Shown here: positions 6,220 through 59,861 of the stretch, piece after piece
How the letters are laid out: each line of letters begins with the position of its first letter
How positions within the stretch are numbered: the first letter of the stretch is position 1
Translations under genes and position numbers: made by a program
Notes under the pieces: model-generated
The model's input: the letters and a program-made list of their open reading frames with translations, nothing else
Told to the model about the DNA's origin: nothing
The model's database searches: none
Assembly: GCA_024682835.1 (NCBI GenBank)
Contig: JAIKYU010000059.1
Location: forward strand, 27,897 to 91,896
Length of the DNA: 64,000 nt
From: Lachnospiraceae bacterium
GTDB taxonomy: Bacteria; Bacillota; Clostridia; Lachnospirales; Lachnospiraceae
Direction of reading: 5' to 3'

Positions 6220-6268
6220 TTTTTAATAGCAGTTGTTACGTATCACATGTTACGCATCACACGTTATT
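6220..6268. repeat. Three near-tandem ~14 bp units upstream of the purF-like gene
   Basis: Gene-sense (minus): AATAACGTGTGATGC / GTAACATGTGATAC / GTAACAACTGCTATT, just before the AAGGAGG RBS. Confidence 0.75.
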
Positions 6269-6272
6269 GATT

Positions 6273-7424
6273 CTATCCGCCATTTCCGGCGTTCAGCGAC
6301 TCTTCGTTTTCTTCTGCCTCTCTTCTGCGCGTCGTCAGGAAGATATTCTCCCGCAAGGCTTCCTCGTCAGTGGGCACCAGTTTGAGGTACTCCTCCATAC
6401 GCTGGGCCGCCACATCAAAATTGCCCATGTACTCATAGACTGCAGCCATGTTTCTGAGAATCGCGGGATTCTGGGAAGCGTCATCCAGACTCAGCCCGAT
6501 CTGAAAATCGGTCAGCGCATCGCTGTAGCTCCCCATCCGCATTTCACAGGCGCCCAGTGCATTATATATGCTGGCCTGTGACTGATCCTCCTGCAGAAAA
6601 CGGCGATAGGTACTGATCGCCCCCGCATCATCCCCGAGATTCTGTTCAACCTCGCCCAATAAAATAACGATCGGTATTTTATCTGACACGCGGATACTGC
6701 TGTCGTTGTTTGCCTCCTCAAGGAAGCGCTTGGCGCTGTCCGAATCCCCAAGGGAATAGTAAAACCGGCCCTTTTCATAGTTGGTCATCGTATCGGCGCT
6801 GTCCGCGAGAATGTCCTCCAGGATTCCCTTTCCCTCTGCCGCATAGCCTGACCGGGAAAGCGCCTCATAGATGGAAAGGATCTGATCATACGGCCGCGGA
6901 CGCTCATCCAGAATCACCTGAAAATCCTTCAGCGCGCTCTCATGATCCCCCCGCCGCAGGTAGATCATTCCGCGCAGATAATGAGCAATCTTTTCCCTGG
7001 GTTTCAGATCCAGAATGGCGTCATAGATACCGATGGCCTCCTCTGTCCTGTCCTGTGCACGGTAGGTATCCGCGAGATAATAGGCGAGATCGTAGGACAT
7101 GGCGTTCGGTATGCCGCCGCAGTCGGCAAGCGCCGTGCGAAAAGCCGCTTCCGCTCCCTCATAATCACCGAGATAGAAATCGGCGATACCGATTCCGCGG
7201 TACAGTCTGGCACTGTCTTCCCCCTGCGAGCGTGCAGCCTCAAATCTCGCGAGCGCCTCCCTGTACTCCCGGGAATCCAGCAGGGTCATGCCCGCATCAT
7301 ATGCCGTCTCCTCCGACTCGATAAAGGGAACGGAAATCCCGCACCCGGCAATTCCGGTCAGAAGGATACCGGCCATCAGAAAGCCGGCTGTCCGGGATAA
7401 CAGATTCTGCATTCTTCGGCTCAT
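6273..7424 (-). CDS. TPR-repeat lipoprotein
   Basis: 383 aa; lipobox LLTGIAGC; repeated TPR helices. Confidence 0.85.
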   Translation of the reverse strand: MSRRMQNLLSRTAGFLMAGILLTGIAGCGISVPFIESEETAYDAGMTLLDSREYREALARFEAARSQGEDSARLYRGIGIADFYLGDYEGAEAAFRTALADCGGIPNAMSYDLAYYLADTYRAQDRTEEAIGIYDAILDLKPREKIAHYLRGMIYLRRGDHESALKDFQVILDERPRPYDQILSIYEALSRSGYAAEGKGILEDILADSADTMTNYEKGRFYYSLGDSDSAKRFLEEANNDSSIRVSDKIPIVILLGEVEQNLGDDAGAISTYRRFLQEDQSQASIYNALGACEMRMGSYSDALTDFQIGLSLDDASQNPAILRNMAAVYEYMGNFDVAAQRMEEYLKLVPTDEEALRENIFLTTRRREAEENEESLNAGNGG

Positions 7425-7813: not shown

Positions 7814-7843
7814 CTCATTTCCTCCATTAAATAACACGTGATA

Positions 7844-8089
7844 TCATTCATCCACATCCACTGTCACATAATAACCGCGCTCATTCTGCTCTATCTTTCT
7901 GACCGTCCCCTCCGTCTTCTGAAGCCGTTCGGTCAGCGGAATATTGGGGGACATGGCGAGCGATTTCGCATGCCGGGAATCCAGCGTGTAATAATACGAA
8001 CTGGGAAGCACCCCTTCGGCCAGCTTTACACGCTCCCCCTCCTCCAGCAGTCCTGTTCTTTCCATCTTAAAGATCATTTCCCGTGACAT
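7844..8089 (-). CDS. Small conserved-looking hypothetical protein (81 aa)
   Basis: ORF with RBS GGAGGAGACGG-ATG inside the 3' end of the upstream SGNH gene. Confidence 0.65.
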   Translation of the reverse strand: MSREMIFKMERTGLLEEGERVKLAEGVLPSSYYYTLDSRHAKSLAMSPNIPLTERLQKTEGTVRKIEQNERGYYVTVDVDE

Positions 8090-12009: not shown

Positions 12010-14684
12010 GCTTTCTTTCCCGTCAGACGCGCCAGCTGTTCCTCCACCTGTGCGTGCGTCTGCTCGTATTTCCTTTTCTTTTCGCGCTCCTCTTCCACCT
12101 TTTCCGGCTTGGCTCCGGCAAGAAACCGCTCATTGGTCAACATTTTCTCCGAGCGCGCAAGCTCCGCGTCAAGACGCTTCAGTTCCTTGGTCAGACGATC
12201 GATTTCGGCCTGAACATCCACCAGTTCTGCCAGAGGAAGATACAGCGTCGCTCCGGGAAGCGACACGGAAACAGCGCTGTCGTCAATTCCCGTGCGATCC
12301 GTCTGGCAACGCGAATCCGAGGCGCCGGCCAGACTCTCGAAGAACAGTTTGCCGGTTGTAAAAATATCAAGTGTTTTTTTATCTTCGCTGACAATAATCA
12401 CCGATACCTTTTTGGAGGGTGCAACATTCATGGCGTTCCGGACGTTCCGTATCCCCCTCACCGCCGTCTGGATGGTGTCAATCTCCTTTTCTTCCTTCTC
12501 GAAGTTCCATTCATCACGATAAACCGGCCAGTCAGAAATCATGATGGATTCCTCGGCGGACTGGAGGGTACAGAAAATCTCCTCCGTAATAAACGGCATA
12601 TACGGATGCAGCAGCTTCATGGAGCCGGCCAGCACCGTCGTCAGGCACCACATGGCCGCCCGGCGGCTTTCCTCCATGTGCTCTCCATACAGACGCGGCT
12701 TCACCATTTCAATATACCAGTCGCAGAACTCTTCCCAGATGAAATCATAAACCTTCTGGACAGCAATCCCCAGCTCGTATCGATCCATGTTGTCCGTCAC
12801 TTCACGCACCGTGCTGTTAAACCGGGAAAGGATCCACTTGTCAGCCGGTTCAAGCCCGTCCGGCATGGGCGCACCGTACCAGTCCTCGTTCTCATGCAGA
12901 TTCATCATGATAAACCGGGACGCATTCCATATCTTATTGGCAAAATTACGGCTGTTTTCAACCCGTTCCCGGTAGAAGCGCATATCGCTGCCCATATCGT
13001 TGCCGGTGACAAGCGTAAGTCTGAGGGCATCCGCCCCGTAGAGGTCAATAATCTCCAACGGATCGATTCCGTTTCCGAGGGATTTGCTCATCTTGCGGCC
13101 CTGCGCATCGCGCACCAGTCCATGGAAAATCACCGTGTGGAACGGGTAGGTTCCCATCTGTTCATAACTGGAGAAGATCATCCGGATCACCCAGAAGAAG
13201 ATGATATCCCATCCCGTAACCAGCACGTCCGTCGGGAAGAAATATTTCAAATCCGGCGTTTCATCCGGCCATCCGAGCGTCTCGAAGGGCCAGAGCGCAG
13301 AGGAAAACCAGGTGTCCAGCACGTCCTCATCCTGCGTCAGATGACTGCCTTTACACTTTGGACAGGCTGAAGGCTGCGTCCTGTCCACGATAATTTCACC
13401 GCAGTCTTCGCAGGTCCATGCGGGAATCCGGTGCCCCCACCAGAGTTGGCGGGAGATACACCAGTCGCGGATATTGTCTGTCCAGTTAAAATACCGCTTT
13501 TCCGCTCCTGCGGGCACCAGCTTGATTTCTCCTTCCTTCACGGCCCGAACGGCGGGTTTGATGAGTTCATCCATCCGGACAAACCATTGCTTCTTGATCA
13601 GCGGCTCTACCGTCGTATGGCAGCGGTCATGCGTGCCGACATTGTGGGTATAATTCTCCACGCGAACCAACAGTCCCAGTTCATCCAGTTCCCTGACGAT
13701 CTGCTCGCGACAGGCATAGCGATCCATTCCCGCAAACTTCCCGCCGTTTTCATTAATGGTGGCATCATCGTTCATGATATTGATTTCCGGCAGATGATGA
13801 CGCTTGCCCACCTCAAAGTCATTCGGGTCGTGTGCGGGTGTGATTTTTACAACGCCGGTTCCGAATTCCATATCCACATAGTCGTCCGCCACGATCGGCA
13901 GTTCACGGTTCATTAACGGCAGCATCAGTTTTTTGCCGACCAGTTCCCGATATCTCTCATCATTCGGGTTGACCGCCACGGCCGTATCACCGAGCATGGT
14001 CTCCGGACGGGTCGTTGCGAATTCAATAAACCGCGTCGTGCTGACAGAACCGTCCTCCTCAATAAACGGATACCGGATATGCCAGAGGTGACCGTTCTGC
14101 TCTTCATATTCGACTTCCGCATCGGAAAGGGAAGTGTTACAGACCGGACACCAGTTGATAATCCGGCTCCCTTTATATATGTAGCCTTTTTCATGCATGC
14201 GCACGAAGACTTCCGTCACAGCGCGGTTGCAGCCCTCGTCCATGGTGAAGCGCTCTCTGTCCCAGTCGCAGGAGCTGCCAAGCTTCTTTAACTGCGAGAC
14301 GATGGTTCCGCCGTACTTTCGCTTCCATTCCCATGCGCGCTCAAGAAACTTCTCGCGTCCGAGCGCATGCTTGTCAATTCCCTCCTCCTTCAGCTCATTG
14401 GTAATGCGAACCTCAGTGGAAATGGACGCGTGATCGGTTCCCGGCTGCCACAGGGTATTGTAGCCCTGCATCCTTTTCCACCGCACCAGAATGTCCTGAA
14501 CCGTTTCATCAAATGCGTGTCCCATATGCAGAATCCCCGTGACGTTCGGGGGCGGGATCACGACGGTAAACGGTTTTCTGTTCTCATCCACTTCGGCATG
14601 GAAGTACTTCCTTTCCTCCCACGTTTTGTAAATCCTGTCCTCCAATCCTTTCGGATCATATGCCTTTGCCAGTTCCTTTTTCAT
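12006..14684 (-). CDS. valS: Valyl-tRNA synthetase
   Basis: 892 aa; PPPNVTGILHMGHAFDETVQDILVRWKRMQGYNTLWQPGTDHA, KMSKSLGNGIDPL, C-terminal coiled coil. Confidence 0.97.
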   Translation of the reverse strand: MKKELAKAYDPKGLEDRIYKTWEERKYFHAEVDENRKPFTVVIPPPNVTGILHMGHAFDETVQDILVRWKRMQGYNTLWQPGTDHASISTEVRITNELKEEGIDKHALGREKFLERAWEWKRKYGGTIVSQLKKLGSSCDWDRERFTMDEGCNRAVTEVFVRMHEKGYIYKGSRIINWCPVCNTSLSDAEVEYEEQNGHLWHIRYPFIEEDGSVSTTRFIEFATTRPETMLGDTAVAVNPNDERYRELVGKKLMLPLMNRELPIVADDYVDMEFGTGVVKITPAHDPNDFEVGKRHHLPEINIMNDDATINENGGKFAGMDRYACREQIVRELDELGLLVRVENYTHNVGTHDRCHTTVEPLIKKQWFVRMDELIKPAVRAVKEGEIKLVPAGAEKRYFNWTDNIRDWCISRQLWWGHRIPAWTCEDCGEIIVDRTQPSACPKCKGSHLTQDEDVLDTWFSSALWPFETLGWPDETPDLKYFFPTDVLVTGWDIIFFWVIRMIFSSYEQMGTYPFHTVIFHGLVRDAQGRKMSKSLGNGIDPLEIIDLYGADALRLTLVTGNDMGSDMRFYRERVENSRNFANKIWNASRFIMMNLHENEDWYGAPMPDGLEPADKWILSRFNSTVREVTDNMDRYELGIAVQKVYDFIWEEFCDWYIEMVKPRLYGEHMEESRRAAMWCLTTVLAGSMKLLHPYMPFITEEIFCTLQSAEESIMISDWPVYRDEWNFEKEEKEIDTIQTAVRGIRNVRNAMNVAPSKKVSVIIVSEDKKTLDIFTTGKLFFESLAGASDSRCQTDRTGIDDSAVSVSLPGATLYLPLAELVDVQAEIDRLTKELKRLDAELARSEKMLTNERFLAGAKPEKVEEEREKKRKYEQTHAQVEEQLARLTGKKA

Positions 14685-14723
14685 CTGTAATTATCCCTCC
14701 CGATCTCTGAATGATCCCTACAA

Positions 14724-14752
14724 TTTTTAATCAATAACGCCCGCATTGTCAA
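14724..14752 (-). promoter_or_regulatory. Sigma-A-type promoter of valS
   Basis: Gene-sense TTGACA (14752-14747), 17 bp spacer, TAAAAA (14729-14724), ~33 nt leader to ATG 14684. Confidence 0.6.
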
Positions 14753-15167
14753 GGGAAAGAAGCCAATCATGTGTTATCTAATCAATCCTTGAACCAAATC
14801 AGTTGTTATTAAAAGCTCAGATCGTCGTTTAGTTGACATAATAATATTGACTGACATTGTTTTGTTTGGAATCACATGCTTTGACAAACAGTTTTCCGTT
14901 AAGTTACACAACCCGCATAAAATCGGGGTTTCAATTTTTTCATGTGCCAAATGTCCCCAATTTCCACATAGTTTTCCACAACCCTTGTTTCTCGGATTTT
15001 GTGGCAGATCATCGATTTTTTGTCAATAAACGGTTTGTATTGTGTACACAATTTCGATCCTGCCGGGGAGTTTTTGGTTTACATAATTCGGTGACCATGT
15101 GTATTATGTCGCCTTATCGTTTTATGGGCATTATTTTATCACTATAAAAAACAGCGATTGATTTTGT

Positions 15168-17720
15168 CTATTTCACGAAATCCCTTGACCAGAAGGCATT
15201 CAGTTCGTTTTTGACCGAATCGGTCGTGACGGTTTTGCAGTTTTCCCATTCTCTCGGAAACAATCTGCGATACGCCGGCTGTCGAAATCGCTCATCCAGG
15301 AGCAGGATGACCCCGCGATCCTCCTCCGTTCGAATAAGCCTGCCAAGCGCCTGCAGCACCTTATTCATTCCCGGAAACCGATAGGCATAATCAAAGCCGT
15401 CGATCTCCCGCGCATCAAACCAGGCACGCAGCAGTTCCCTCTCCTCCCCAACCTGGGGCAGCCCCGTTCCGACAACGATCACGCCGATCAGGCGCTCTCC
15501 GCGCAGATCGATCCCCTCGCCGAAGATTCCGCCGAGGACGCAGAGACCAAGCACGCTTTTTTCCTCCGTCACCTCAATGTCCATCCGGATATCTGTTGTC
15601 AGATCCGCATCCGTCCCCGACGTAAACCAGGAAAGAAATTCCTCCCGGCCCTCCTCCGTCATCTGCTCCTGCTGCGTGACAAGCTGTACCTGCTCCGGGT
15701 CATGAAACGCGGAAAGGTAGCATTTTTTCACCTCCTTCAGAAGCTGATAGGAAGGAAAAAAGACGAGATAGTTTCCGCGTTTCGCGTGTACCGTTTCCTG
15801 CAGATACCGCGCGATTTTCCGATATTGCCCGTCTCCCCTTTCCTGATATCTCGTGGTCACGTCCTGCGCAAGAAGCACCTGAAACTGTGCGGGCAGAAAG
15901 GCGGTCTCAGCGTATGCCTCGTAATCCTCCTCCTGTCCTCCCAACAGGGATTTATAGTACTGGATCGGCAGAAGCGTGGCAGAAAACAGAATGGTCGAGA
16001 CCGCCCGTTTCATACAGTAATCCAGTCTTGCTGCAGGATCCACACACATCAGCTTGATCTGTGCACGCCGGTTCCATCCGCGCTCTCCGTAGACAACGTA
16101 ATGATCGTCCACAAGCTCCGCGATGGTGAGAAAACGGAACAGCCGAAAATAGAACGAAACCTCCTCGTCACCGCGCACTTCTGCCTCCTCATCCATCAAC
16201 CCGGAGATCAATTCAGCAAGCCCGATCAGGTTTGACATCAGTGGTTCGGTCTGTTCCAGGACCTGAAGGCGCCCCGGCGGCAGATCATTCAGCAGCAGCT
16301 CCATTGCCCTTAAGGAGTGGTCAAACTTCTCCTGTATCCGTTTTCTCATATCCCCGGCCGTACTGCTGCGAAAGCTTTGAGCGGCTGCTGTCAGCTCGTC
16401 TGCGGTGATCACGGCGCTGTACATCTCTCGGCCGCGATCCAGCAGATTGTGTGCCTCATCCACCAGGAAGATATTGCCGCGTCCCGCGCCCGCTCCCTCC
16501 GCAAAAAACCGCCGCAGGTATACAAAGGGATCAAAGACATAATTGTAATCGCAGATGATTCCATCCGCAAAAAGCGTCAGATCCAGCGTCAACTCGAACG
16601 GACAGACCCCGTGTGCCTCCGCGCCCGCCAGGATGGTCTCGCGATTCAGTTCCTCCCCGCCGGAAAGCAGGTCAAAGAGCGCGTCATTGACGTGTGAATA
16701 GTGTCCGCGGGCTCTGGGACAGGCGTCCGGATTACAGGAAGGTCGGCTTAAAACGCAGCTGCGTTCTTTCGATGTCAGTGTAACCGTTCTAAACCGCAGA
16801 CCGTTTCTCCTGAGAATGGAAAATGCCTGCTCCGGAACTGTTCTTGCCACGGTCTTGGCCGTCATATAGAAAATGCGCTCCGCATGTCCCTCTCCGACTG
16901 CCTTAAGAGCCGGATAAAGCACGGCAAGGGTCTTCCCGGCACCCGTCGGCGCCTCCAGAAAAAGCTTCCGGCCGTTGGCAATCGTTCGGTAAACATATCC
17001 GGTCAGCGCGCGCTGACCCGCCCGGTAGGGAAAAGGAAAGGAGAGCGCCCGGATGGACTGCTCCTTCTCCTTCCGTCCGTAATAGAGCAGATCTGCAAAA
17101 GGCTTGTAACGCTCAATCAGGCCTTCAAAAAAGCTTTTCAGCTCGTCCGCCGTGTAGCGGTATCGAAAATAGCGGATCTCCTCCGTCTGCGCCTGACAAT
17201 AGGTCATCCGCACGCGGACCCGTTCCAGTCCCTCCCGCACCGCATAGAACCAGGCATAGCATTTCGCCTGGGCAAGGTCCGGCGTGCGTGCTTCGCGCAG
17301 CCTTGCGATATCCGATATTGTGCTCTTGATCTCATCAATGACGGGCACATCCTCCCAGCGAATCTGTGCCTCCTGATCGGCAGGAACCGAAGCTTCGCGA
17401 AGAATATCCTCGAAATCAAGCTGCTTTTCCTGCGCTGCCTCCGGATCCGCCTGACCCGTCAGTATCCCGTCTGCCCGTCCCTCCACGCAAATCGCATAGT
17501 CCTCATAGTTCACAACCAGCGACAGCGGTACTTCTGCCTGATAACCGCTTCCCTGTCTGCGCTGAATCATCCGATGAATCCGGGAACCGTTCAGCAGGTT
17601 CTGCTCCGAGCCCCCTCTCCGGCGATCATCCAGATCACCCTCACGGAGGATAAACTCCACGAGGCCGCGAACGGAAATCCGCATTACATCGTTCACTTTT
17701 TTCTGCTCATCTTTTGTCAT
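15168..17720 (-). CDS. DinG/Rad3(XPD)-like ATP-dependent DNA helicase
   Basis: EAPTGAGKTLAVLYPALKA, LVDEAHNLLDRGREMYS, GGIFGEGIDLRGERLIGVIVVGTGLPQV, QALGRLIRTEEDRGVILLLDERF; four-Cys Fe-S-like region (CVLSRPSCNPDACPRARG...HGVCPFE). Likely start MTKDEQKK at 17720. Confidence 0.88.
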   Translation of the reverse strand: MTKDEQKKVNDVMRISVRGLVEFILREGDLDDRRRGGSEQNLLNGSRIHRMIQRRQGSGYQAEVPLSLVVNYEDYAICVEGRADGILTGQADPEAAQEKQLDFEDILREASVPADQEAQIRWEDVPVIDEIKSTISDIARLREARTPDLAQAKCYAWFYAVREGLERVRVRMTYCQAQTEEIRYFRYRYTADELKSFFEGLIERYKPFADLLYYGRKEKEQSIRALSFPFPYRAGQRALTGYVYRTIANGRKLFLEAPTGAGKTLAVLYPALKAVGEGHAERIFYMTAKTVARTVPEQAFSILRRNGLRFRTVTLTSKERSCVLSRPSCNPDACPRARGHYSHVNDALFDLLSGGEELNRETILAGAEAHGVCPFELTLDLTLFADGIICDYNYVFDPFVYLRRFFAEGAGAGRGNIFLVDEAHNLLDRGREMYSAVITADELTAAAQSFRSSTAGDMRKRIQEKFDHSLRAMELLLNDLPPGRLQVLEQTEPLMSNLIGLAELISGLMDEEAEVRGDEEVSFYFRLFRFLTIAELVDDHYVVYGERGWNRRAQIKLMCVDPAARLDYCMKRAVSTILFSATLLPIQYYKSLLGGQEEDYEAYAETAFLPAQFQVLLAQDVTTRYQERGDGQYRKIARYLQETVHAKRGNYLVFFPSYQLLKEVKKCYLSAFHDPEQVQLVTQQEQMTEEGREEFLSWFTSGTDADLTTDIRMDIEVTEEKSVLGLCVLGGIFGEGIDLRGERLIGVIVVGTGLPQVGEERELLRAWFDAREIDGFDYAYRFPGMNKVLQALGRLIRTEEDRGVILLLDERFRQPAYRRLFPREWENCKTVTTDSVKNELNAFWSRDFVK

Positions 17721-19547: not shown

Positions 19548-22500
19548 GGGATCTGCACGGCTCTTCCCACAGCAAAGGACCAGATCCATTTCTCGCGGAC
19601 CTTCCATTCCGTGAGACGCTCCAGCGCTTCGGCATACAGCTGCAGCTGCACCCCGTACCGCGACGCCAGCTCACTGCCGTCTCCCACGGTATGATCCGTT
19701 TTGTAATCCAACAGCACAATCCCATTGTCCTCGACGAAATACGCATCAACAATTCCCTGCAGGAGCACTTTCTCCCCTGCCGGGGCCTCTTTCTGCACCC
19801 GTACCGCGTCAATGCTCATCATGAACTGTTTTTCACGGAACAGGCATTTTTCGCCAAATGCACGGATGAAACGCTGTCCGAGATCCGAGGATAAAAACAC
19901 CAGCACGTCGTCCGGGCGAACAGCTTCAGCCGCTTCCAGTGAAAATCCCTCATCTTTACGTTTTTTCATCCACTCATGTACTTTATTGCGATTTTCATTA
20001 ATTAAATCCTGATTTGTTATCTGCTGATCATAGAGTATTTCCGCGTCCAGAAGCTCCATTACTTTATGATAGAGGATTCCGCGCTCAGCTCCGGTTGCCT
20101 TTTCTCCCTGTCTAAGGAGCCGGTGCTCATTTTTGTCCATTTTGATTGACTGCTCCGGTTCTTTCAGGAGGTGACTGAGCCCCGGAGTTTCCTCCTCCTC
20201 AGCCAGACTGTGTTCCTTCATCTCGGTGACGGTGGTCTTCACATACAGGTTTTCCAATTCCTTGTGTGCATACTGAAATCGGACTTTTTCCAGGATGGAC
20301 GCCTTTAGATAACAATTGATATTTATCCCGTTGACTGCATCAGTCAGTGCCCTGTTTCGCTCTTTCTCCGTCTTTTTTTCCACTTCCACCGACTGTTTCC
20401 ACCCGGATTCCGTAACCATTTTGATCCGGATCGGAAGCGGACGCGCCTTAAGCACTGCCTCCAGAACAGAAAGATAGCCGGACGCGTGTGCCCGTTTCAA
20501 ATAGGATAACCCCGCGCTCCCAGTCAGCCGCTGCTGCGCTTCCATCATTGCCCGGATATTCTCCTCCTTTGCCCGCGCTGTCAGGATCAGCTTTTCCTTC
20601 GCGCGCGTCATCGCGACATACAGCACCCGATACTCCTCACCCAGGCTCTCCTCATGCATCCGGTCCGCAATGGCCAGCCTCCTGAGCGTGGTATACCTCA
20701 CCCGCTCCACAGGGTCAACCGCATAGCTGCCCAGTCCGATCCTGTCATCCTTGAGCACGGCCGATCTCTCATCCCGACGGTTAAAAGCGCGGGAGAGTCC
20801 GGCGACAAAAACAATCGGAAACTCCAGTCCCTTGCTCTTGTGTATGCTCATGATCCGGACCAGATCCGCGTTTTCCGAAAGGACACTGGCCTCCCCATAA
20901 TCCACCTCCACGCGTCGGTATTGCTCGAGCCGCGCGGCGAAGGCCCCCAATCCTCTGCCTCCCGTTTTTTCAAATTCCGCTGCCCGAAGCATCAGCTGCT
21001 GCACATTGGCCCGTCGCCTGGCGCCGGCCGGCATGGCTGAAACCAGTTCCAGATATCCTGTCTCATCCAGAATCATCTCCAGCAGTTCCCGGACAGCAAG
21101 CCGCCCGGATGCTTCGCGCCATGCCGCCAGACGTTCCAGAAAATCAGCACATTTCCCGGATAACGATAAGGGGCAGATATCGACTGTTATTTTATTCTTG
21201 TCCGGAGAAGCGCATCGAACGAGCGCATCATACATTCCGTCCGCGCGATTCGGATCGGCGGCGCGGATGCGTGCCAGCTCCGAATCGCTGAATCCGCCGA
21301 TGACGGATCGCAGCACCCCGGCAAGCGGAATATCTCTGAGCGGATTCTCCATAATAGACAGCAGATCCGTCAGAACACGGATTTCCCGCGCCTTGAAATA
21401 GCCCGCCCTTGATTCCGTATGAACAGGTATGCCGTATTCTGTCAGTACCTCCCGGTACACATCATCCACTCCGGCTGTCGCGCGAAGCAGAATGACGATA
21501 TCTCCGAACCGCGGGCGTCGAAGTCCTTCCTTTTTGTCGCTCACCAGTCCATCCTTCATCAGTCCCCTGATCCGGCTGGCAATCATGCGCGCTTCCGCCT
21601 CCTCTCCGGAGACATGGGAATCGTCGGGATCCGGCTCCTCCTCCATGTCGGATTCGGACTCAGCCTCCGACTTCGCATACAGCAGTAACTCCGGCTCAAA
21701 AGGATCCGTTTCTTCGTCCGGAGGCGGATAATCCGCTCCTGCGCGAAGCATGGCATCGTCATCGTACTCCACACCTCCGACATCCCGCTTCAAGACCTCG
21801 GAAAACACATCATTTGCCAGATCCAGAACCTCGCGGCGGCTTCGGAAATTCTGATGAAGATCCACACGTCGCTCCTCACCCGGACCGCGGCCGCACCGTT
21901 CAAGCTTGCCGGTAAAAATCTCGGGACGCGCAAGACGAAATCGATAGATGCTCTGCTTGACATCGCCGACCATAAACCGGTTTCTTTCTCCGGCGTCCCT
22001 GCGTGAAACGGCATCGAGGATCAGCTCCTGCACATAATTGCTGTCCTGATACTCATCAATCATAATTTCATGAAAATAAGCGGCGTATTCTTTTGCAACC
22101 GCAGTCGGAACAGGATGAAAAATCCCGGCCATCTCCTCCGGTTCCTCCACCAGAACCCGGAGAGCCAAATGCTCCATATCAGAAAAATCGATCACATTCT
22201 TCTCGCGTTTCCTGTTCTCCAGACGTTCCCCGTACAGCAGCGCCAGTCTCACCAGTTCATTGCTCGCCCGCTCCGCCATCTGTTCCCGGAGAAACAGGAT
22301 TTGGGGCGGCGCAAAAAAATAACGATCGATATCTTTTTGTATCAGATCTTTGATTTCGTTTCGTATGTCTTTCGCTGTCTCTCTTTTTTCCGTCTCAACC
22401 GCCTCGTCCCGTTTGGAGGAGAGCCTGCCGAACAACCCGCCGACCGGTGTCACTGCGTCATATAATTCAGAAAAATCAGCAGCCTTTGCCGCGGCGGAAA

Positions 22501-23320
22501 GTTTTTCGATTTCACTTGTTATTGTATCCTCATACATCCAGGGCCCGCCGGGCGACTGAATGATTCGCAGCACCCCGCGCAACGTATCTGCCGCGCAGGC
22601 AAACTCTTTTTTCAGGCGTTTTGTGAGTTCCGTCAACCAGGGCTGCCCGGTATCATGTCCGGAAGGGATTTTGTCCGAAGTTCCTGACAGCTGCGTCTTC
22701 AGCCAGAGCTTCGGCCAGGGCATACTCTCCGCAAAGCGGTGCAGCGCCGTAATCTCTTCCTCGATCCCGCGATCCGTCGCCCCTTGTGCATAGACCTCCG
22801 TGCAATACAGAAAATCCGAATCCTCCCGGCCGGAGGCTTTTTCATATTCCTCCTCAAGAAGTTCCTCCAGGACCTCCGTCTGAAGGAGTTTCAGCTCTCC
22901 TTCATCACAGACGCGAAACGAGGGATCCAGTCCCGCAGCATCAAAATTGTTGCGCAGTACATACTGACAGAATGCGTCAATGGTCATAATCTTTGCATGC
23001 GGAAGCAGCATCTCCTGCCTGCGAAGATGCCTGTCATCCGGAAACCGGGCCGCCCGGACGGACAGCGCTTCGGCAATCTTTTCTCTCATTCCTGCCGCCG
23101 CCGCGCGCGTAAAAGTCACCACCAGAATCCGGTCTATATCAAACGGATGCTCCCCTTCGGAAATCATCCGGACGATGCGTTCCGTCAGAACCGCCGTCTT
23201 TCCGGAACCCGCTGCCGCGGAAACCAGCAGATCACAGCCGCGCGTTTCGATCGCCTCCAGCTGCTCGCCGGTAAAGTGCACCTTCTCCTGCTCCTTATTC
23301 CGCTCACACATCCCGCTCAC
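19544..23320 (-). CDS. addA: ATP-dependent helicase/nuclease subunit A
   Basis: VSAAAGSGKTAVLTERIV, MIDEYQDSNYVQELIL, VGDVKQSIYRFRLARPEIF, SIHKSKGLEFPIVFVAG, C-terminal nuclease LLDYKTDH. Confidence 0.96.
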   Translation of the reverse strand: MSGMCERNKEQEKVHFTGEQLEAIETRGCDLLVSAAAGSGKTAVLTERIVRMISEGEHPFDIDRILVVTFTRAAAAGMREKIAEALSVRAARFPDDRHLRRQEMLLPHAKIMTIDAFCQYVLRNNFDAAGLDPSFRVCDEGELKLLQTEVLEELLEEEYEKASGREDSDFLYCTEVYAQGATDRGIEEEITALHRFAESMPWPKLWLKTQLSGTSDKIPSGHDTGQPWLTELTKRLKKEFACAADTLRGVLRIIQSPGGPWMYEDTITSEIEKLSAAAKAADFSELYDAVTPVGGLFGRLSSKRDEAVETEKRETAKDIRNEIKDLIQKDIDRYFFAPPQILFLREQMAERASNELVRLALLYGERLENRKREKNVIDFSDMEHLALRVLVEEPEEMAGIFHPVPTAVAKEYAAYFHEIMIDEYQDSNYVQELILDAVSRRDAGERNRFMVGDVKQSIYRFRLARPEIFTGKLERCGRGPGEERRVDLHQNFRSRREVLDLANDVFSEVLKRDVGGVEYDDDAMLRAGADYPPPDEETDPFEPELLLYAKSEAESESDMEEEPDPDDSHVSGEEAEARMIASRIRGLMKDGLVSDKKEGLRRPRFGDIVILLRATAGVDDVYREVLTEYGIPVHTESRAGYFKAREIRVLTDLLSIMENPLRDIPLAGVLRSVIGGFSDSELARIRAADPNRADGMYDALVRCASPDKNKITVDICPLSLSGKCADFLERLAAWREASGRLAVRELLEMILDETGYLELVSAMPAGARRRANVQQLMLRAAEFEKTGGRGLGAFAARLEQYRRVEVDYGEASVLSENADLVRIMSIHKSKGLEFPIVFVAGLSRAFNRRDERSAVLKDDRIGLGSYAVDPVERVRYTTLRRLAIADRMHEESLGEEYRVLYVAMTRAKEKLILTARAKEENIRAMMEAQQRLTGSAGLSYLKRAHASGYLSVLEAVLKARPLPIRIKMVTESGWKQSVEVEKKTEKERNRALTDAVNGININCYLKASILEKVRFQYAHKELENLYVKTTVTEMKEHSLAEEEETPGLSHLLKEPEQSIKMDKNEHRLLRQGEKATGAERGILYHKVMELLDAEILYDQQITNQDLINENRNKVHEWMKKRKDEGFSLEAAEAVRPDDVLVFLSSDLGQRFIRAFGEKCLFREKQFMMSIDAVRVQKEAPAGEKVLLQGIVDAYFVEDNGIVLLDYKTDHTVGDGSELASRYGVQLQLYAEALERLTEWKVREKWIWSFAVGRAVQIP

Positions 23321-27975: not shown

Positions 27976-28032
27976 CTTGCTCTCCTCATTTAAAAACAAA
28001 TGTTATAATAACACGCGATATAATATCATGTA

Positions 28033-28749
28033 TTATTTATTCTTGTTAATGATTCTCGACTGAACCTCTCCGCTTTCGATGTTGATAAAACGCGTGAAAA
28101 GGGATACCCGGTTGTTCTCATCCAGTGCTTCCCATACGCCGTCCGTAAAGGCATCGAACGAATCCGCAATCGTCACTGCCTTCGGCTCTCCGGTGAAGCT
28201 CGGCAGCGCTTCTGTCGGAGCAACATCTCTCGCGTAGGTATGGATCAGATGTCCCTCTCCGGCAACCGGATTGGCATAGGCGTAGGTAAAACGCTGACAG
28301 GAGGAGGGGTCGCCGCCGCGGGACTTGATGACGGACAGCTGGTAATCGTAATGTCCGCCGGCAACATGCACCAGAGCGGAGATCCTCGGCGTGAAATTCG
28401 GCGCATCCGGCTCGAATTCTCTTGTGGAAAGCGCCTCTGTCCAGGTCATCTGTGCATCCAGTCCGCTCACGATCGTATCGGTCTGATCTCCGTTCGTCAC
28501 AACGGTATAGTTGCCGATCGTGCGCACCGGTGCGTAAATAATCAGGCTCGGATCCGTAAGCTTTGCCGGATCGAATGCCTCGGTCCGGATGCCGGTTCCG
28601 TCCTCCACAAAAATGCGGTTGCGGCTGTTCTCACTCCTTCCCATGATGAAATAAGCGATTGCGGCCCGCTTTCCGTCGGCCGTCAGTCCGATCACGATTC
28701 CCCTGCCGGGATAACTGTTTGCCTGTAACTCCTTTACCAGATCCATCAC
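28033..28749 (-). CDS. purO: PurO-type IMP cyclohydrolase
   Basis: YPGRGIVIGLTADGKRAAIAYFIMGRSENSRNRIF...IIYAPVRTIGNYTVVTNGDQTDTI...FTPRISALVHVAGGHYDYQLSVIKS. Confidence 0.85.
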   Translation of the reverse strand: MMDLVKELQANSYPGRGIVIGLTADGKRAAIAYFIMGRSENSRNRIFVEDGTGIRTEAFDPAKLTDPSLIIYAPVRTIGNYTVVTNGDQTDTIVSGLDAQMTWTEALSTREFEPDAPNFTPRISALVHVAGGHYDYQLSVIKSRGGDPSSCQRFTYAYANPVAGEGHLIHTYARDVAPTEALPSFTGEPKAVTIADSFDAFTDGVWEALDENNRVSLFTRFINIESGEVQSRIINKNK

Positions 28750-30215: not shown

Positions 30216-30242
30216 CGAAAAACAAAATATAGCAGATGGTAT

Positions 30243-39293: not shown

Positions 39294-39902
39294 ATGAGTT
39301 ATTCTTTTTTTGCAACCGTCTCCCGGATGAAATACATCGACCGTTGGGCGCTGATGCGCAACGCCAGGGAAGAAAACCTCAGCGAACACTCGCTGGAGGT
39401 GGCCATGATCGCACATGCGCTCTGCATAATAGGTAACAAGCGTTATGGTAAATCGCTGAACGCGGAAAAAGCCGCTTTGATCGGACTCTATCACGACGCT
39501 TCCGAAATAATAACTGGCGATATGCCAACTCCCGTCAAATACAGAACCAGCGCTCTGCGGCGCGCTTATAAAGAGGTGGAGGGCGTCGCGGAGGATCAGC
39601 TTTTGCGCATGCTCCCGGAGGATCTGCGCGACGCATTTGCCGGCATCTTTTCAAGCGACGAGCAGGATGTGGAGGAGCAGTATCTCCGTCGTCTCGTCAA
39701 AGCAGCAGACAAATTTTCGGCGCTCATTAAATGCATGGAGGAAAAGGAGGCCGGAAACCTCGAATTCCGCACGGCAGAGCTCTCCACACGAGAATCCATT
39801 GAAAAAATGAGCCGGGAGCTGCCCGAGGTACGGGATTTCCTGATCGAATTCCTTCCCTCCTACGGCAACACGCTGGATGAACTGATCGGAAAGGATGATT
39901 AA
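39294..39902 (+). CDS. YfbR-like 5'-nucleotidase (HD domain)
   Basis: EENLSEHSLEVAMIAHAL...GLYHDASEIITGDMPTPVKY. Confidence 0.92.
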   Translation: MSYSFFATVSRMKYIDRWALMRNAREENLSEHSLEVAMIAHALCIIGNKRYGKSLNAEKAALIGLYHDASEIITGDMPTPVKYRTSALRRAYKEVEGVAEDQLLRMLPEDLRDAFAGIFSSDEQDVEEQYLRRLVKAADKFSALIKCMEEKEAGNLEFRTAELSTRESIEKMSRELPEVRDFLIEFLPSYGNTLDELIGKDD

Positions 39903-40791: not shown

Positions 40792-40828
40792 AGCAGGCAG
40801 TATTTGATACCGCCTGCTATTTTATTAC
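40792..40828. terminator. Terminator between proC and the K+ channel, possibly bidirectional
   Basis: AGCAGGC-A-GTAT-TTG-ATAC-C-GCCTGCT followed by ATTTTATTA; AT-rich on the other flank too. Confidence 0.75.
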
Positions 40829-40875
40829 CCGCAGAAAGCGTTCCTATATTAACTATCGATCGTTATCGTATTTGT

Positions 40876-47294: not shown

Positions 47295-48803
47295 TCAGAC
47301 GCGGCCGGCACGGACATCCTCGAACTCCTCAAGGACTTCCCGATCGGGAGCCTTTGTGCAAAGACTCACGACGATGATGGCAACCAGACTCAGGAAGAAG
47401 CCGATCAGCAGCGAGTATACGCCGGTCGCGCTGCCAGCCGTCTGACCGCCGAAAAGCGGCAGATAATCCCAGAAAATAACCGTCAAAGCACCGATTGAAA
47501 TCCCCGCAATCGCCCCCTGTGTATTGGTTCTCTTCCAGTAAAGAGACAGTAACACCGTCGGTCCGAATGCTGCACCAAGTCCCGCCCAGGCATCAGACAC
47601 CAGTCCCATGATGGAGCTGTTCGGATCCAGAGCAATGAAATACGCAATAAAGGCAACAACAATAACCACGATGCGGCTGAACCACACCATTTTCGCGTCC
47701 GACTGCTTTCTTCGGAAGAATCCCATATAGAGATCCTCCGTCACGCTCGAGGCGGTAACCAGCAGCTGCGAATCCGCCGTCGACATGATGGCGGCCAGAA
47801 TGCCGCACAGGAAGATTCCGGCGATGATCGGCGCGTTCATATGCTCCGTGAACACCTTGATGATCATATACATAAACACGCGTTCACTCTCTCCGTCAGC
47901 CACCAGATCCTGCGTCAGAAACGCACGGCCGATGACACCGATCACACAGGCAAAAAACAGGGAAAGCGCAACCCAGATGATACCGATCGACTTCGCCTTG
48001 TTCAGCTCTCTGTCGCTTTTAACCGCCATAAACCGCACGAGAATATGCGGCATTCCGCAGTAACCCAACCCCCAGGCGAGCTGCGATAATACGGAAACAA
48101 ACGTTATTTTTTCGCCGCCGTCATACAGGGGATTCAGATACTGTGCATTGATGGTTGTTGCCGCCGTCAGATCACCGTTCAGGATCGCATAAGCCGCAAT
48201 TGGAACAGCCAGCAGCGCCACCAGCATGACCGTTCCCTGAATGAAGTCCGTGTCGCACACAGCCGTAAAACCTCCCAGCAGCGTATAGGTCAGAATGACG
48301 ATCGCGCCGATGGTCAGTGAAATCTTGTAATCGATATGAAACACCGTGGTGAACAGCTGACCGCCGGCCGCCAGTGCCGACGCCGTATAAACCAGGAAGA
48401 AGACCATGATCGCCAGGGAGGACACCAGCAGCAGGCCTCTCTTTTTATCATGGAAACGGTTTTCCAGATACTGCGGAAGCGTCACCGCATTGTTGGCGCG
48501 GATTGTGTAACGGCGAAGCCTCGTGGCAATGAAAATCCAGTTTAACACCGTTCCGATAAAGAGCCCAACCGCGATCCAGATCTGACCGGTGCCCAGCGCA
48601 TAGATGGATCCCGGCAATCCCATCAGAAGCCAGCCGCTCATGTCGGAGGCCTGTGCGGAAAGTGCAGCCACCAGACCGTTCAACCTCCTGCCGCCGAGGA
48701 AGTAATCCTCCGAGGAGTTGTTCTGTTTCAGGCTGTACACGCCCACCAGCACCATCACGGACAGATAGATGGCAAACGACAATACAATCCAACCGGTACT
48801 CAT
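47295..48803 (-). CDS. putP: Sodium/proline symporter (SSS family)
   Basis: SEDYFLGGRRLNGLVAALSAQASDMSGWLLMGLPGSIYALG; 12-13 TM. Confidence 0.93.
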   Translation of the reverse strand: MSTGWIVLSFAIYLSVMVLVGVYSLKQNNSSEDYFLGGRRLNGLVAALSAQASDMSGWLLMGLPGSIYALGTGQIWIAVGLFIGTVLNWIFIATRLRRYTIRANNAVTLPQYLENRFHDKKRGLLLVSSLAIMVFFLVYTASALAAGGQLFTTVFHIDYKISLTIGAIVILTYTLLGGFTAVCDTDFIQGTVMLVALLAVPIAAYAILNGDLTAATTINAQYLNPLYDGGEKITFVSVLSQLAWGLGYCGMPHILVRFMAVKSDRELNKAKSIGIIWVALSLFFACVIGVIGRAFLTQDLVADGESERVFMYMIIKVFTEHMNAPIIAGIFLCGILAAIMSTADSQLLVTASSVTEDLYMGFFRRKQSDAKMVWFSRIVVIVVAFIAYFIALDPNSSIMGLVSDAWAGLGAAFGPTVLLSLYWKRTNTQGAIAGISIGALTVIFWDYLPLFGGQTAGSATGVYSLLIGFFLSLVAIIVVSLCTKAPDREVLEEFEDVRAGRV

Positions 48804-50813: not shown

Positions 50814-50832
50814 CGAAATATCGATTGTTATT

Positions 50833-51547: not shown

Positions 51548-54500
51548 TCAGGAAGCTGTCGATCTGGGGCCGTCCTGCAGCTTTGCCACATCCACCAGCA
51601 CCAGATCCTCCTCGCGCTCACCGTTTTCCAGACTGGTGACCAGGGCCCGCGCCGTATCCAGTGCCGTCAGCACGTTCACGCCGGTCTCAATTGCCGTCCG
51701 CCGGATAAGAAATCCGTCCCGTGTCTTATCGCGCCCCTGTGTGGGGGTGTCGATCACCAGATCAATCCGATGGCCCAGAATCAGGTCGATCACCGTCGGC
51801 GATTCCTGGTGAATTTTATTGATCTTTCGCGCGCGCACACCGTTTTCATTGAGGATCTGCGCCGTGGAACGCGTCGCGTAAATAATATAGCCCAGTTTTT
51901 CATATCGCTTCGCGATTCCGATGATCTCGCCCTTGTCCGCATCCCGCACGGTGATGATCATCTGCTTGTGCCTGGGAAGATGATATCCGGCACCTAAAAA
52001 TGCCTTGTAAAGGGCCTCGTTAAAGGTCTCGCTGATCCCCAGACACTCCCCCGTGGATTTCATCTCCGGTCCCAGGCTGATCTCTGCTCCGCGGATCTTT
52101 TCAAAGGAGAACACCGGCATCTTGACCGCAATGTGTTTTACCTCCGGCTGAAGACCGGGCGCATAGCCAAGATCGCGCAGCTTTTTCCCGAGCATCACCT
52201 GCACAGCCAGATCGACGATCGGAATACCTGTCACCTTACTGATATAAGGCACGGTACGCGAGGAACGGGGATTTGCCTCAATAATATAAATCTCCTCTCC
52301 CACCGCGATGAACTGGATGTTGATCAGTCCGATCACATGCAGCGCCTGTGCCAGGCGCCTGGTATACTCGGCAATGGTTTCCTTTGCCTTGTCCGACAGG
52401 GTCTGCGCGGGATAGACGGATATCGAATCGCCGGAATGAATGCCGGAACGCTCAATATGCTCCATGATTCCCGGAATGACCACATCCTCCCCGTCGCACA
52501 CCGCATCGACTTCCGTTTCCGTCCCCTGCAGGTATTTGTCAATCAGAATCGGATGATCCTGCGCGTACCGGTTGATAATCGCCATGAATTCCACGATCTC
52601 ATCATCGTTCAGGGCAATCTGCATCCCCTGTCCACCCAGCACGTAAGACGGCCGGATCAGCACGGGGTACCCGAGACGGTTCGCTGTCTCCACCGCCTCC
52701 GCCGCCGTGTAGACCGTCGCACCCTCGGCGCGGGGGATACCTGTCTTTTGCAGAATCTCATCAAAAAGCTCCCGATCCTCTGCAGCATCGACATCGGCAG
52801 CATCGGTTCCGTATATCCTGACGCCCATCCGCATCAGGTCCTGCGTAAGCTTGATCGCCGTCTGCCCGCCAAACTGAACCACCGCGCCGTCCGGTTTCTC
52901 CAGCCTCACCACATTCTCCACATCCTCCGGCGTCAAGGGCTCAAAGTACAGCTTATCGGCGATGTCAAAGTCCGTGGAAACCGTCTCCGGATTGTTGTTG
53001 ATGATGATGGTTTCATAATTCTCGCGGGCAAAAGCCCAGGCGGCGTGAACCGAGCAGTAGTCAAATTCGATTCCCTGTCCGATACGAATCGGTCCGGATC
53101 CAAGGATCAGAATCTTTTTCTTTTGTTTTGATTTAATATCACTTGCTTTTTTATCCGTTTTATCGATAGCGGGCGTTATCATACGTTCCGCCGCTTCATT
53201 CTCCTCATCCGCATCGCCGTACACGGAGTAATAGTACGGGGTCTTTGCCGCAAACTCCGCCGCACAGGTATCCACCAGCTTATAGGCCGCTTCGATGCCG
53301 CTCCCATAACGCAGAGCTTTGACGCGATCCTCCTCCATCCCCGTCAGCTGCGCAATCACGGTATCCGGAAACTCCATTTTCTTAGCCTCAAGCAGCAGCT
53401 GTCCATCCGGATTTCTGCCTGCCGCCTTCAGCTTCCTCTCCGTTTCCACAAGACGATTGAGCTTGTCAATGAACCAGATGTCCACCATCGTGATCTCATG
53501 TATACGCTGCATGGTAAACCCGCGCCGCAGAGCCTCCGCGATCACCCAGATCCGCTGGTCATCAATGCGATGGAGCCGATCCTTCAATTCATCATCCGCA
53601 AGCCCGGAAAAATCATAACTCAGCAAAGAATCCACATGCTGTTCCAGAGAACGGATCGCCTTCATCAGTGCTCCTTCAAAACAGGTGCAGATGCTCATCA
53701 CTTCACCGGTCGCCTTCATCTGCGTCGTCAGCGTGCGTTTGGCGGTCAGAAACTTGTCAAACGGCAGCCTCGGGAACTTCACCACACAGTAATCCAGGGC
53801 CGGTTCAAAGCTCGCTCTTGTCTTCCCCGTGATCGCATTGGGGATCTCGTCCAGCATGTACCCGAGCGCAATCTTTGCCGCCACTCTCGCTATGGGATAT
53901 CCCGTCGCCTTCGAGGCGAGCGCGGAAGAACGGGATACACGGGGATTGACCTCAATCACACAATACTCAAAGGAATTCGGATGCAGGGCAAACTGTACAT
54001 TGCAGCCCCCGGTAATCTGCAGCTCGTCTATGATATTCAGCGCCGCACTGCGCAGCATCTGATATTCCTTGTCGCCAAGGGTCTGGGAAGGCGCAACGAC
54101 AATGCTGTCCCCTGTGTGCACCCCGACGGGATCCAGATTCTCCATGTTGCAGACCGTGATGCAGTTGCCGGCGGAATCGCGCATCACCTCGTATTCGATT
54201 TCCTTCCAGCCGGCAATACAGCGCTCCACCAGCACCTCGCCCACACGGGAGAGACGCAGTCCGTTGGTCAGAATATCATCAAGCTCCGCCTGATTGTGCG
54301 CAATACCGCCGCCGGATCCGCCCAGCGTGTAGGCAGGACGCAGAACAACCGGATAGCCGATCTGCTTGGCAAAGCGTTCCCCATCCTCCAGATTGGTGAC
54401 GACAAGGGAGGGGGCACAGGGCTCGCCGATCTTTTCCATCGTATCCTTGAAGCACTGTCTGTCCTCCGCCTTGCGGATCGTCTCTGCCGTTGTGCCCAGA

Positions 54501-56006: not shown

Positions 56007-56040
56007 TCCTCGACTTCTCTCCTCTATAAAACCATGTTAT

Positions 56041-59000
56041 TTACAGAAAATACTTTACACCGGATGCAAAAATCTTCATATCCTGCTCGCCGACGATATT
56101 TCTGGCGACACCGTCTCCAATCCGTTCGCTGTGGCACATTTTCCCAAAGCATCTGCCGTCCGGCGACGTGATTCCCTCGATCGCGCAGTACGATCCGTTG
56201 ATATTCCACTCATCGTCCATGGAGAGTACGCCGTCCGGATCGCAATACTGCGTTGCCACCTGTCCGGCAGCAAACAGCTGCGCAATCACATCCCCGGGCG
56301 CGACAAACCGACCCTCTCCGTGAGAGGCCGGGTTGGTGTAGACCCCGCCCAGTTCCGCTTCCGCAAGCCAGGGAGATTTGTTGGAGACCACCTTGAGATA
56401 CGCCATGCGGGAAATATGCCGTCCGATGGTATTGCGCGTCAGCGTCGGTGAGGCCGGCGTCTGTTCCGTCACGATTCTCCCCTCCGGCACGAGTCCCAGC
56501 TTGATCACCGCCTGGAAGCCGTTGCATATCCCCAGCACGAGTCCGTCCCGTTCCTCCAGAAGCTTCTGCATCGCCTCCCTGATCCTGTCATTGCGAAAAG
56601 CCGTAGCAAAAAACTTGGCGCTGCCGTCCGGCTCATCACCCGCAGAGAAGCCCCCCGGGAACATCACGATCTGTGCCTGTGCAATCGCTTCTTCAAAGGC
56701 CTCCACGGATTCCAGTATATCCTGTGCATTGCGGTTCCTGAACACCAGCGTGCGAACCTCTGCACCGGCGCGCCGAAACGCCCGTTCCGTGTCGTACTCA
56801 CAGTTGGTGCCGGGAAACACGGGAATGAAGACCGTGGGTTTCGCCACGCGATGCCGGTTTACATACACCTCTTTGGCGTCATACAGCTTTTCCTCCAGGG
56901 GCGTCCGGTTTTCGTCCGCACGGGTTTTGAATACCGGCTCCAGGGTGCGGGTCCAGGCGGCAAGCGCATCCTCCCCGGAAACCACCGTCGTGCCGTCAAT
57001 CCGAAATGCCGGTTCCTCCGTCACCTCTCCGATCATCGCGCTGCCGCAGCCTGCTTCCTTAAGCAGCGTCTCCGCATCCGATATCATATCATCCGTTATT
57101 TCAATCAGCAGGTCACCGGGGGTAGCAGAGAACAGGGATTCATTAATATCGCTTGTTATTTTATATCCCAGACTGTTTCCGAATGCCATGACACTCAGGG
57201 CCGGCAGAACGCCGTGACGATCCAGTGCGCTGCAGGAAACGATCACTCCACGTCTCATACACCCGATCACTTTTTCGTAGACCTCCAGCACGCGATCGTA
57301 TTCCGGAAGGTCATTCCGGTCCGTCCCGATACGAATCACCGCCAGCCGGTTGCCGGCCTTTTTCAACTCCGGCGTGATGACCTCGCCGGCCTTTGCCATG
57401 TCAACCGCAAAGGATACCAGGGTCGGCGGCACGTGAATCTCATTAAAGGAACCGGACATACTGTCCTTTCCCCCGATGGACGCCATCCCGTAGCGAAGCT
57501 GTGCCTCAAACGCGCCGAGAAGAGCTGTGAGCGGCTCCCCCCAGTTTTCGGAATCGATCATCCGGCGGAAATACTCCTGGAAGGTGAAATGGATTCCCTG
57601 CAGCGCGCCGCCGCTGGCGACAATCCGGGCGATCGACTGCGTCACTGCCCAGACTGCACCGTGGTACGGGCTGAATTCAGACAACGCCGGGTCAAAACCG
57701 TAGGACATAAGCGAAACCGCATCCGTCTCCCCGTGCAGAATCGGGAGCTTGGCGGCCATAGCCTGCGTCGGGGTCTTCTGATACTTCCCGCCAAAGGGCA
57801 TGGTCACGGATGCCGCGCCGATCGACGAATCAAACATCTCGATCAATCCCTTCTGGGATGCAACATTAAGGTCGGCAAGCGCAGCCAGAAGCGCTTCCCC
57901 GGTCTTTCCGGCGCGGAATGCCTCCCGCACCGCCGGATCGGAAATCCCGTGCAACGGATTTTCTTCCCTCCTCGGAAGCTTCACGCGAACCTTCGTCTCC
58001 TGCGGAGCGCCGTTGGTATCAAGAAACGCTCTGGAAATATCGACGATTTTCTTTCCGCGCCAGTTCAGCACCAGACGCGGTTTGTCCGTCACCACCGCCA
58101 CCTCTGTGGCCTCCAGATTTTCCTCTCCCGCGTACGTAAGGAATGTCTCTCTGTCTGCAGGATCGATGACAACCGCCATTCTCTCCTGTGATTCGGAAAT
58201 AGCAAGCTCCGTCCCGTCCAGACCGGCATATTTTTTGGGAACCAGGTCCAGATTGATATCCAGCCCGGGTGCCAGCTCACCGATTGCCACAGACACACCG
58301 CCCGCGCCGAAATCGTTGCATTTCCGGATCAGATGCGCCACTTCGGGCCTTCGGAACAGCCGCTGAAGCTTTCGCTCCGTCGGAGCATTTCCCTTCTGCA
58401 CCTCCGCCCCGCAGGTCGTGATCGATTTGGTGTCGTGCGCCTTGGACGAGCCGGTTGCACCGCCGATTCCGTCACGGCCGGTTCTGCCGCCCAGCAGGAT
58501 GACTATATCGCCGGGCCGTGGGGATTCTCTGCGCACGGCGCTCTTCGGGGCAGCCCCCATGACGGCGCCGATTTCCATTCGCTTCGCCACATAGTTCGGA
58601 TGGTAAATCTCACGGACAAAGCCGGTTGCAAGACCGATCTGATTGCCGTAGGACGAATACCCTGCCGCGGCCCCCCGAACCAGCCGTTTCTGTGAAAGCT
58701 TGCCCGGAAGCGTCTCCGAGGCCGGCCGCGTCGGATCCGCCGCACCGGTCACGCGCATCGCCTGATAGACATATCCTCTTCCGGAAAGCGGATCACGGAT
58801 CGCACCGCCCAGGCATGTCGCCGCTCCGCCGAAGGGTTCGATCTCCGTCGGATGATTATGTGTTTCGTTCTTAAAGAACAGCAGCCATGTCTCGGTGCGG
58901 ACTCCGCCATCCTCGTCCGCAATTTCCACCGGAACCTCGATCGTACAGGCGTTGTTCTCTTCGGATTCCTCCATATCGGTAAGCTTTCCTGCCGCCTTAA

Positions 59001-59861
59001 GCTTCTTCATCCCCATCAGCGCGATGTCCATGAGGCAGACCGGTTTTTTTGCCTTCTTCTCCGGCGTGCGGTACAACTCGTCCCTGGCCTCGAAGTAATG
59101 CTGTAAACTTCCCTCGATAACCTCCCGGTAATCGCCGTCTTCCCAGTCGATTTCCTTCAGTTCCGTCCCGAAGGTCGTGTGCCTGCAGTGATCCGACCAA
59201 TAGGTGTCCAGCACACGGATCTCTGTCATGGTGGGATCCCGGTGCTCCTCATCTCTGAAATGATCGCGGATCCACAGGAAATCCTTCCAGGTCATCGCAA
59301 GCGACAAAGCGTCGTATACCTCCCGCAGCCTGTCCTCGGGCTTCTCACAGAAGCCGTCCAGAACAGCCACATCCGCCGGCTCCTCATACGTCACGGAAAG
59401 TGTCTCGGGCTTCGTCTCATCGGTCACCCGCGAATCCACCGGATTCACCAGATAGTCTTTTATCCGGTCAAATTCGGCATCCGAAATATCACCTGTTATT
59501 ATATAAGTCTCTGCCGTTCGGACGTCCGGTTCCTCGTCCTCCTTAATAAACCGGATACACTGCTCCGCGGAATCCGCGCGCTGGTCAAATTGTCCCGGAA
59601 GCGCCTCCACCGAGAAGATGCGTGCGCCATCCGGCACCTGCACAACCTCCCGATACAGCTCATCCACAGGTGGTTCCGAGAATACCGTGACACAGGCCTG
59701 CCGAAACACCTCATCACCAACACCTTCCACATCATAGCGGATCAGGAGCCGTACCTCCTCCACGCCGGCTATGCCCAGGTAATGCCTCAGATCATGCCGC
59801 ACCTCCCGTGCTGCGCCCGCAAACTCCTTCTTCTTTTCCACATAGATCCGTCTGACGCCCA
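56041..59861 (-). CDS. purL: Phosphoribosylformylglycinamidine synthase, single-chain
   Basis: MGVRRIYVEKKKEF...; RVLDTYWSDHCRHTTF; FKNETHNHPTEIEPFGGAATCLGGAIRDPLSGR; C-terminal GATase MFPGGFSAGDEPDGSAKF...LGICNGFQAVIKLG. Confidence 0.97.

Follow-up and report, generated by a model that had tools for sequence, protein, structure and literature searches.

The repeated motif and its enrichment

The stretch of Lachnospiraceae DNA analysed here (the window, 64,000 nucleotides, G000:C138:27897-91896, from a 3.22 Mb genome in 154 contigs) carries valS, addA, addB, the purine genes purO and purH, a MATE gene, typA, yigZ, yfbR, carB and purL, and a short string recurs both within and between these genes. 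The valS relatives of the window are Lachnospiraceae, the nearest named one belonging to a cattle-rumen metagenome-assembled genome (88% identical). An initial annotation had described the string as running through unrelated genes in one reading frame and in the orientation of transcription, and had offered a chromosome-organising protein site, an RNA site or a small insert resembling Rickettsia palindromic elements as explanations. The strings are indeed present and over-represented, and matrix refinement identifies them as one face of a 16-bp pseudo-palindrome, AATAWCRNNYGWTATT, with A/T-rich flanks. Its half-sites are usually unlike, one AATAACR being paired with one AATATCR in 80 of 114 sites where ~49 are expected from the column frequencies.

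The enrichment exceeds what codon constraint gives. In 300 codon-preserving shuffles, with each protein and the per-gene codon usage held fixed, exact AATAWCRNNYGWTATT occurred 0.05 times on average (maximum 1) compared with 5 in the window, and the excess persists at up to one mismatch (18 vs a mean of 0.91, maximum 4) and up to two mismatches (32 vs 5.1, maximum 11). The pattern AAAATAACANNNGATAT with up to three mismatches gave 37 matches, some of them one place counted on both strands, where 2.5 were expected and the shuffle maximum was 8. A 24-bp matrix called 37 places in the window, of which cores are listed in Table 1 together with their state in G015, the only genome of the same genus that equals G000 in motif strength.

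Table 1. Motif cores in the window and the corresponding places in G015.
Feature	Position in window	Strand	Basis	State in G015
Cores	6225-6240, 6663-6678, 7830-7845		matrix	7830: no site at aligned place
valS, one core	12363-12378	-		DNA identical
valS upstream region, two weak cores	14795-14810, 14843-14858		matrix	14843 (C138:42735) not kept, score 4.8
addA, four cores	20308-20323, 21176-21191, 22318-22333, 22508-22523	+, -, +, -	matrix	21176 (C138:49068) kept
addB, five cores	23727-23742, 24128-24143, 24429-24444, 25035-25050, 26146-26161		matrix	23727, 24128, 25035, 26146 kept
purO-purH spacer, three overlapping cores at exact 15-bp steps	27992-28007, 28007-28022, 28022-28037		matrix (scores 24.9, 28.0, 28.9)	all three places conserved
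MATE gene region and upstream of typA	30228-30243, 31280-31295, 31872-31887, 32212-32227		matrix	31280: no site at aligned place
Core just past typA, within end of opposite-strand neighbour gene (34329-35798)	34345-34360	+	pattern and matrix	
yigZ, three cores	35929-35944, 35980-35995, 36046-36061		matrix	2/3 kept where aligned
Cores, incl. 39509 in yfbR	39432-39447, 39509-39524, 40806-40821, 40852-40867		matrix	39432, 39509 kept
Cores	48093-48108, 50817-50832		matrix	48093 kept
carB, two cores	53135-53150, 53165-53180		matrix	both weaker (scores 11.0, 11.7)
purL, three cores	57085-57100, 57145-57160, 59485-59500	-	matrix	57145, 59485 kept

Reading frame, orientation and placement

Frame and orientation were counted on fetched sequence of G000, G015 and G410, the last from another genus, with genes called by a simple codon-usage caller. 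The recurrence in a single reading frame is real and is explained by stop codons: in the AAC..GAT orientation, GATAAAATAACRNNYGATATT, TAA occupies two of the three frames, and 36 of 39 same-sense sites within genes use the stop-free third, whereas opposite-orientation sites use all frames. The reported agreement with transcription did not survive the wider count. The window alone leans same-sense (about 9 vs 4 opposite), but across genomes the same-sense to opposite ratio is 12:15 (G000), 18:15 (G015) and 9:15 (G410); site orientation is not set by coding sense. An RNA-level element, that is, an RNA-binding or processing site, would suit the same-sense examples and the single frame of the initial annotation; it finds no support because the motif is palindromic and lacks strand bias, and with the frame explained by stops and the intergenic excess described below, we regard it as hardly probable.

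An uptake, restriction or replication-direction signal (DUS-, Chi- or KOPS-like) would also consist of many short conserved sites in genes. KOPS and Chi have a strong replication polarity, however, whereas here leading to lagging counts are about even (24:18, 32:24 and 18:17 in the three genomes), and the palindromic form and regional clustering of the sites make such a signal very improbable.

Most sites are intragenic, distant from gene starts and in unrelated housekeeping genes; those in the islands of G410 include serA, serC, ilvD, tgt, aroC and tyrS, identified by eye. Nevertheless, 23 of 80 sites are intergenic vs 5.3 expected, and spacers inside operons, e.g., between opp-type permease genes and between purO and purH, carry them too, in keeping with selection for sites in DNA under weak coding constraint. 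A transcription factor of the usual kind, with operators across a very large regulon, would account for a dimeric palindrome and for the intergenic excess, and the core resembles the LexA-type CRNNYG centre, a lead only. The intragenic position of most sites, far from starts, their arrays in operon-internal spacers and their regional rather than regulon-wide distribution nonetheless render this explanation unlikely, and the outer bases (ATAAC/ATATC) and mainly intragenic placement differ from the LexA/SOS box, GAAC-N4-GTTC in promoter operators.

How sites arise and persist

The valS site encodes DKKTLDI and is identical at the DNA level in G015. In the 37 other orthologs the same residues align gap-free to unrelated sequence and the motif is absent, including in L023, the only other valS-region locus clearly enriched for it (L036, considered as a further carrier, gave weak and unconvincing matches). 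The alignment of 38 orthologs, a check that the initial annotation had proposed to separate insertion from substitution, has no insertion and no target duplication at the motif, and the peptide, the only one checked, is not conserved in motif-free orthologs. This result and the excess over codon-preserving shuffles, the two outcomes on which the initial annotation had staked its refutation, both turned out in its favour. In valS, the one gene checked, the copy was gained by substitution rather than insertion. Small inserted repeats, such as Rickettsia palindromic elements, REP or MITE sequences, share with the motif many dispersed copies inside or between genes; since the sites are short (16-24 bp, with a variable centre) and degenerate, and the valS alignment has no in-frame insertion, that option of the initial annotation is unsupported and scarcely credible.

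Once present, sites tend to stay. G000 and G015 share ~72% DNA identity, and 29 of 36 aligned G000 sites are still sites at the same place in G015; in the reverse test 29 of 30 G015 sites are kept. Identity is 0.815 in the core vs 0.724 in the flanks. Xer/dif-like or invertase recombination sites, or footprints that a site-specific mobile element leaves behind, could produce inverted half-sites around a degenerate centre and a preference for asymmetric halves. We give them only a small chance, as the arms are unlike the dif of a complete relative, GGTTTACATAA-TTATA-TTATGTAAACC, valS lacks an insertion or target duplication, and many copies stand at conserved positions.

Chromosomal distribution

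G000 holds 62 sites at up to one mismatch vs 4 for reversed-pattern controls. Site counts per 10 kb along C138 are 1, 3, 2, 3, 6, 13, 9, 2, 5 and 0, with the peak centred on ~17-37 kb of the window, the densest island found in this genome. Contigs C138 and C42, picked, like the other contigs examined, after hit locations were seen, carry about 33 of the 62 best G000 sites on 4.3% of the genome (binomial ~1e-28), and four contigs making up 22.5% of G410 carry 42 of its 66 sites (~1e-12). The hot G015 contigs are orthologous to the hot G000 contigs. Very few sites lie in the origin regions (1 in 26 kb on C151 of G000, none in 20 kb on C121 of G015), and the smc and polC pieces of G127 are cold.

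Placement relative to the terminus relied on a composite protein query of the complete chromosome of CE91-St56 (L231), which has a dif-like site at 3.624 Mb and a skew switch at 3.623 Mb. G410 C41 is syntenic with 3.78-3.80 Mb of this chromosome, and parts of G000 C146 and C138 fall at 3.70-3.76 Mb, positions near the terminus in that genome. The dif-like site itself (3623970-3624000, GGTTTACATAATTATATTATGTAAACC) is a near-perfect palindrome with an apparent 5-bp centre, <1 kb from the GC-skew switch. A Bacillus-type dif was not found in G000 or G015, and the CE91-St56 dif used as a pattern gave no match in g1 genomes and only weak candidates elsewhere, among them G410:C26:52111, around which the skew does not flip.

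Tandem arrays

Sites that lie close together are often exactly 15 bp apart (8 of 16 close pairs in G000 and 9 of 26 in G015), with a single pair at 14 bp and none at 16 bp in these genomes. The longest run has four sites (C91:15975-16035, between two opp-type permease genes); runs of three occur in the window at 27992-28037 and at C5:3939 of G015. The 15-bp step suggests cooperative binding of neighbouring dimers. Tandem arrays on viral contigs were seen in two stretches, and of these L263, the end of a phage-like contig where the 15-bp repeats are nearly identical, is uninformative.

Taxonomic spread

In a survey of 397 Lachnospiraceae genomes, which compared exact cores with controls, most genomes had 0-2 exact cores, near background, whereas in some gut-dwelling members of the family the motif copies number well over a hundred. 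Exact cores far outnumber controls in G000 (19 vs 0), G100 (33 vs 1), G410 (20 vs 0), G127 (68 vs 2) and G426 (22 vs 0); exact cores were counted in AT-rich G127 because counts of the 24-bp matrix are near background there. Two genera besides that of the window are strongly enriched, and in genus g77 exact matches of the asymmetric form occur in 53 of 60 genomes with controls near zero. Within the genus of the window, G018 and G002 are weak. The taxonomic spread is patchy.

Other features of the window

Upstream of valS, positions 14685-15170 (~480 bp) are AT-rich and non-coding and contain blocks that three species have in common, namely TTGTGGAAAACT-N-TGTGGAAATTGGGGA (DnaA-box-like), GATTCCAAACAAAAC and ACATAAT-N15-ATTATGT, the arms of which resemble dif arms around a longer centre. 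The region has no match in Rfam. At 26797-28749 the purine genes are split, with an AICAR formyltransferase (PRK07106 type) beside an archaeal-type PurO-like IMP cyclohydrolase in place of a fused PurH.

A candidate chromosome-organising system

We consider it probable, at roughly 60%, that the string represents the sites of a protein that binds DNA as cooperating dimers and marks regions of the chromosome, akin to matS/MatP, Noc, SlmA, RefZ and SegB. The palindrome, its neutral orientation, the unrelated carrier genes, the regional clustering and the positional conservation all favour the chromosome-organising option among those of the initial annotation. A dimeric sequence-specific protein would bind the core, each half-site being roughly WTWWAATAWCR, and neighbouring dimers would bind cooperatively at 15-bp centre spacing. 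The sites would mark chromosome stretches rather than particular genes, and selection would keep them wherever coding allows, favouring short intergenic gaps and stop-free frames. Bound protein would then bridge, condense or position these stretches, or tie them to segregation or division. We infer the protein binding, the cooperativity and the organising role from sequence patterns.

Several observations weigh against this interpretation. No binding protein was identified among the candidates examined. G410 has a single 15-bp pair, so that the spacing is almost absent there, and its islands form several peaks (C1:40-120k, C1:240-300k, C41:20-40k, C37 and C26) separated by quieter DNA. In G000 the contigs with smc and infB/pnp/dxs are cold while their counterparts in G410 are hot, and the hot regions hold partly different genes between genera. 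The island pattern does not establish one domain centred on the terminus or the origin: genes carried by G410 C1 sit at 0.67-0.85 Mb in CE91-St56 and cannot be placed near the terminus, the smc and infB/pnp/dxs contigs differ in state between G410 and G000, and the terminus region of CE91-St56 is not enriched for the motif (1 vs 1.5). Furthermore, the clustering statistics used contigs picked after the counts were seen, and the site map is partial, being drawn from unfinished motif-bearing genomes, as most of the genomes compared are fragmented.

Candidates for the binding protein were sought among ParB proteins and near the peak. PF02195 matches in G000 comprise only a Spo0J-type gene (C151) and an integrative and conjugative element (ICE)-type ParB (C42), each preceded by a ParA gene. 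Sites of this ICE-type ParB, encoded next to lysS, or of Spo0J would agree with the hot state of C42, with the parS-like 16-bp architecture and with these being the only two ParB_N proteins found in G000. Yet strongly enriched G015 shows only a Spo0J-type ParB, the Spo0J locus carries its own parS-like sites, and hardly any motif copies occur in the origin region, which makes this explanation quite improbable. The absence of the ICE-type ParB from G015 is not final because that genome is 81% complete. The peak shared by G000 and G015 offers only housekeeping and membrane genes (addAB, purO/purH, MATE, typA and yigZ). On C42, an excisionase-like gene and the ICE-type parA-parB directly follow lysS at the contig end (L105 4744-6743), probably the edge of an integrated element. 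On C151, three parS-like sites lie upstream of soj-spo0J (L112 2506-2754) and read as an open reading frame give MFHVKH-type peptides.

Returning to a region-marking protein, the closest parallels come from known systems that differ in sequence. The matS sites of MatP, GTGACRNYGTCAC, number 23 in the Ter macrodomain of enterobacteria (PMC3116907). In systems of this kind, such as SlmA and MatP (PMC3116907), sites often fall mostly within coding DNA and leave their carrier genes unaffected. The motif shares with matS a short palindrome and a CRNYG-type centre, and may share the regional scatter and the lack of action on carrier genes; its core, AATAWCRNNYGWTATT, has an even-length centre, however, and its sites are far more numerous and denser, with several islands and 15-bp tandem arrays. 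Noc nucleates on 16-bp Noc-binding sites (PMC8429893), and both these and parS resemble the motif in the 16-bp palindrome, the equal half-site spacing and the WCR..YGW inner bases, but differ in the outer bases. Noc is a ParB paralog without its own ParA, whereas both ParB proteins of G000 have one, and the TGTTTCACGTGAAACA-like sites typical of parS near the origin are separate from the motif, standing at C151 with one mismatch, while the origin region is nearly empty of the motif. RefZ, which likely binds as a pair of dimers (PMC6657595), also has near-palindromic sites at conserved chromosomal positions, but with five fixed sites in Bacillus compared with well over a hundred motif copies. 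The archaeal SegB recognises a 13-bp palindrome at ~46 sites, ~84% of them intragenic, that are enriched in part of the chromosome and clustered near segAB (PMC12284271), and the sites of ZapT in Caulobacter are mostly in open reading frames near the terminus (PMC7188993); both belong to other lineages and have other sequences, and the motif has tandem 15-bp arrays and no identified ParA-like partner. A literature search for the motif or for a Firmicute MatP-like system returned nothing relevant among the matches listed.

Region-specific chromosome markers are known from few model lineages. Somewhat more tentatively, the sites may belong to a chromosome-organising or segregation system of Lachnospiraceae that has not been described before, in which a protein would assemble cooperatively on 15-bp-phased palindromes in several islands; the system would be gained or lost between genera and able to settle on different genes. 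Selection at the DNA level is also seen to reshape protein sequence, since every motif-free valS ortholog examined differs in the stretch that holds the site. Because its spread is patchy, the motif should allow the binding protein to be found by phylogenetic profiling, and a dense, conserved set of such markers in common gut bacteria would open a way to study chromosome arrangement in Clostridia.

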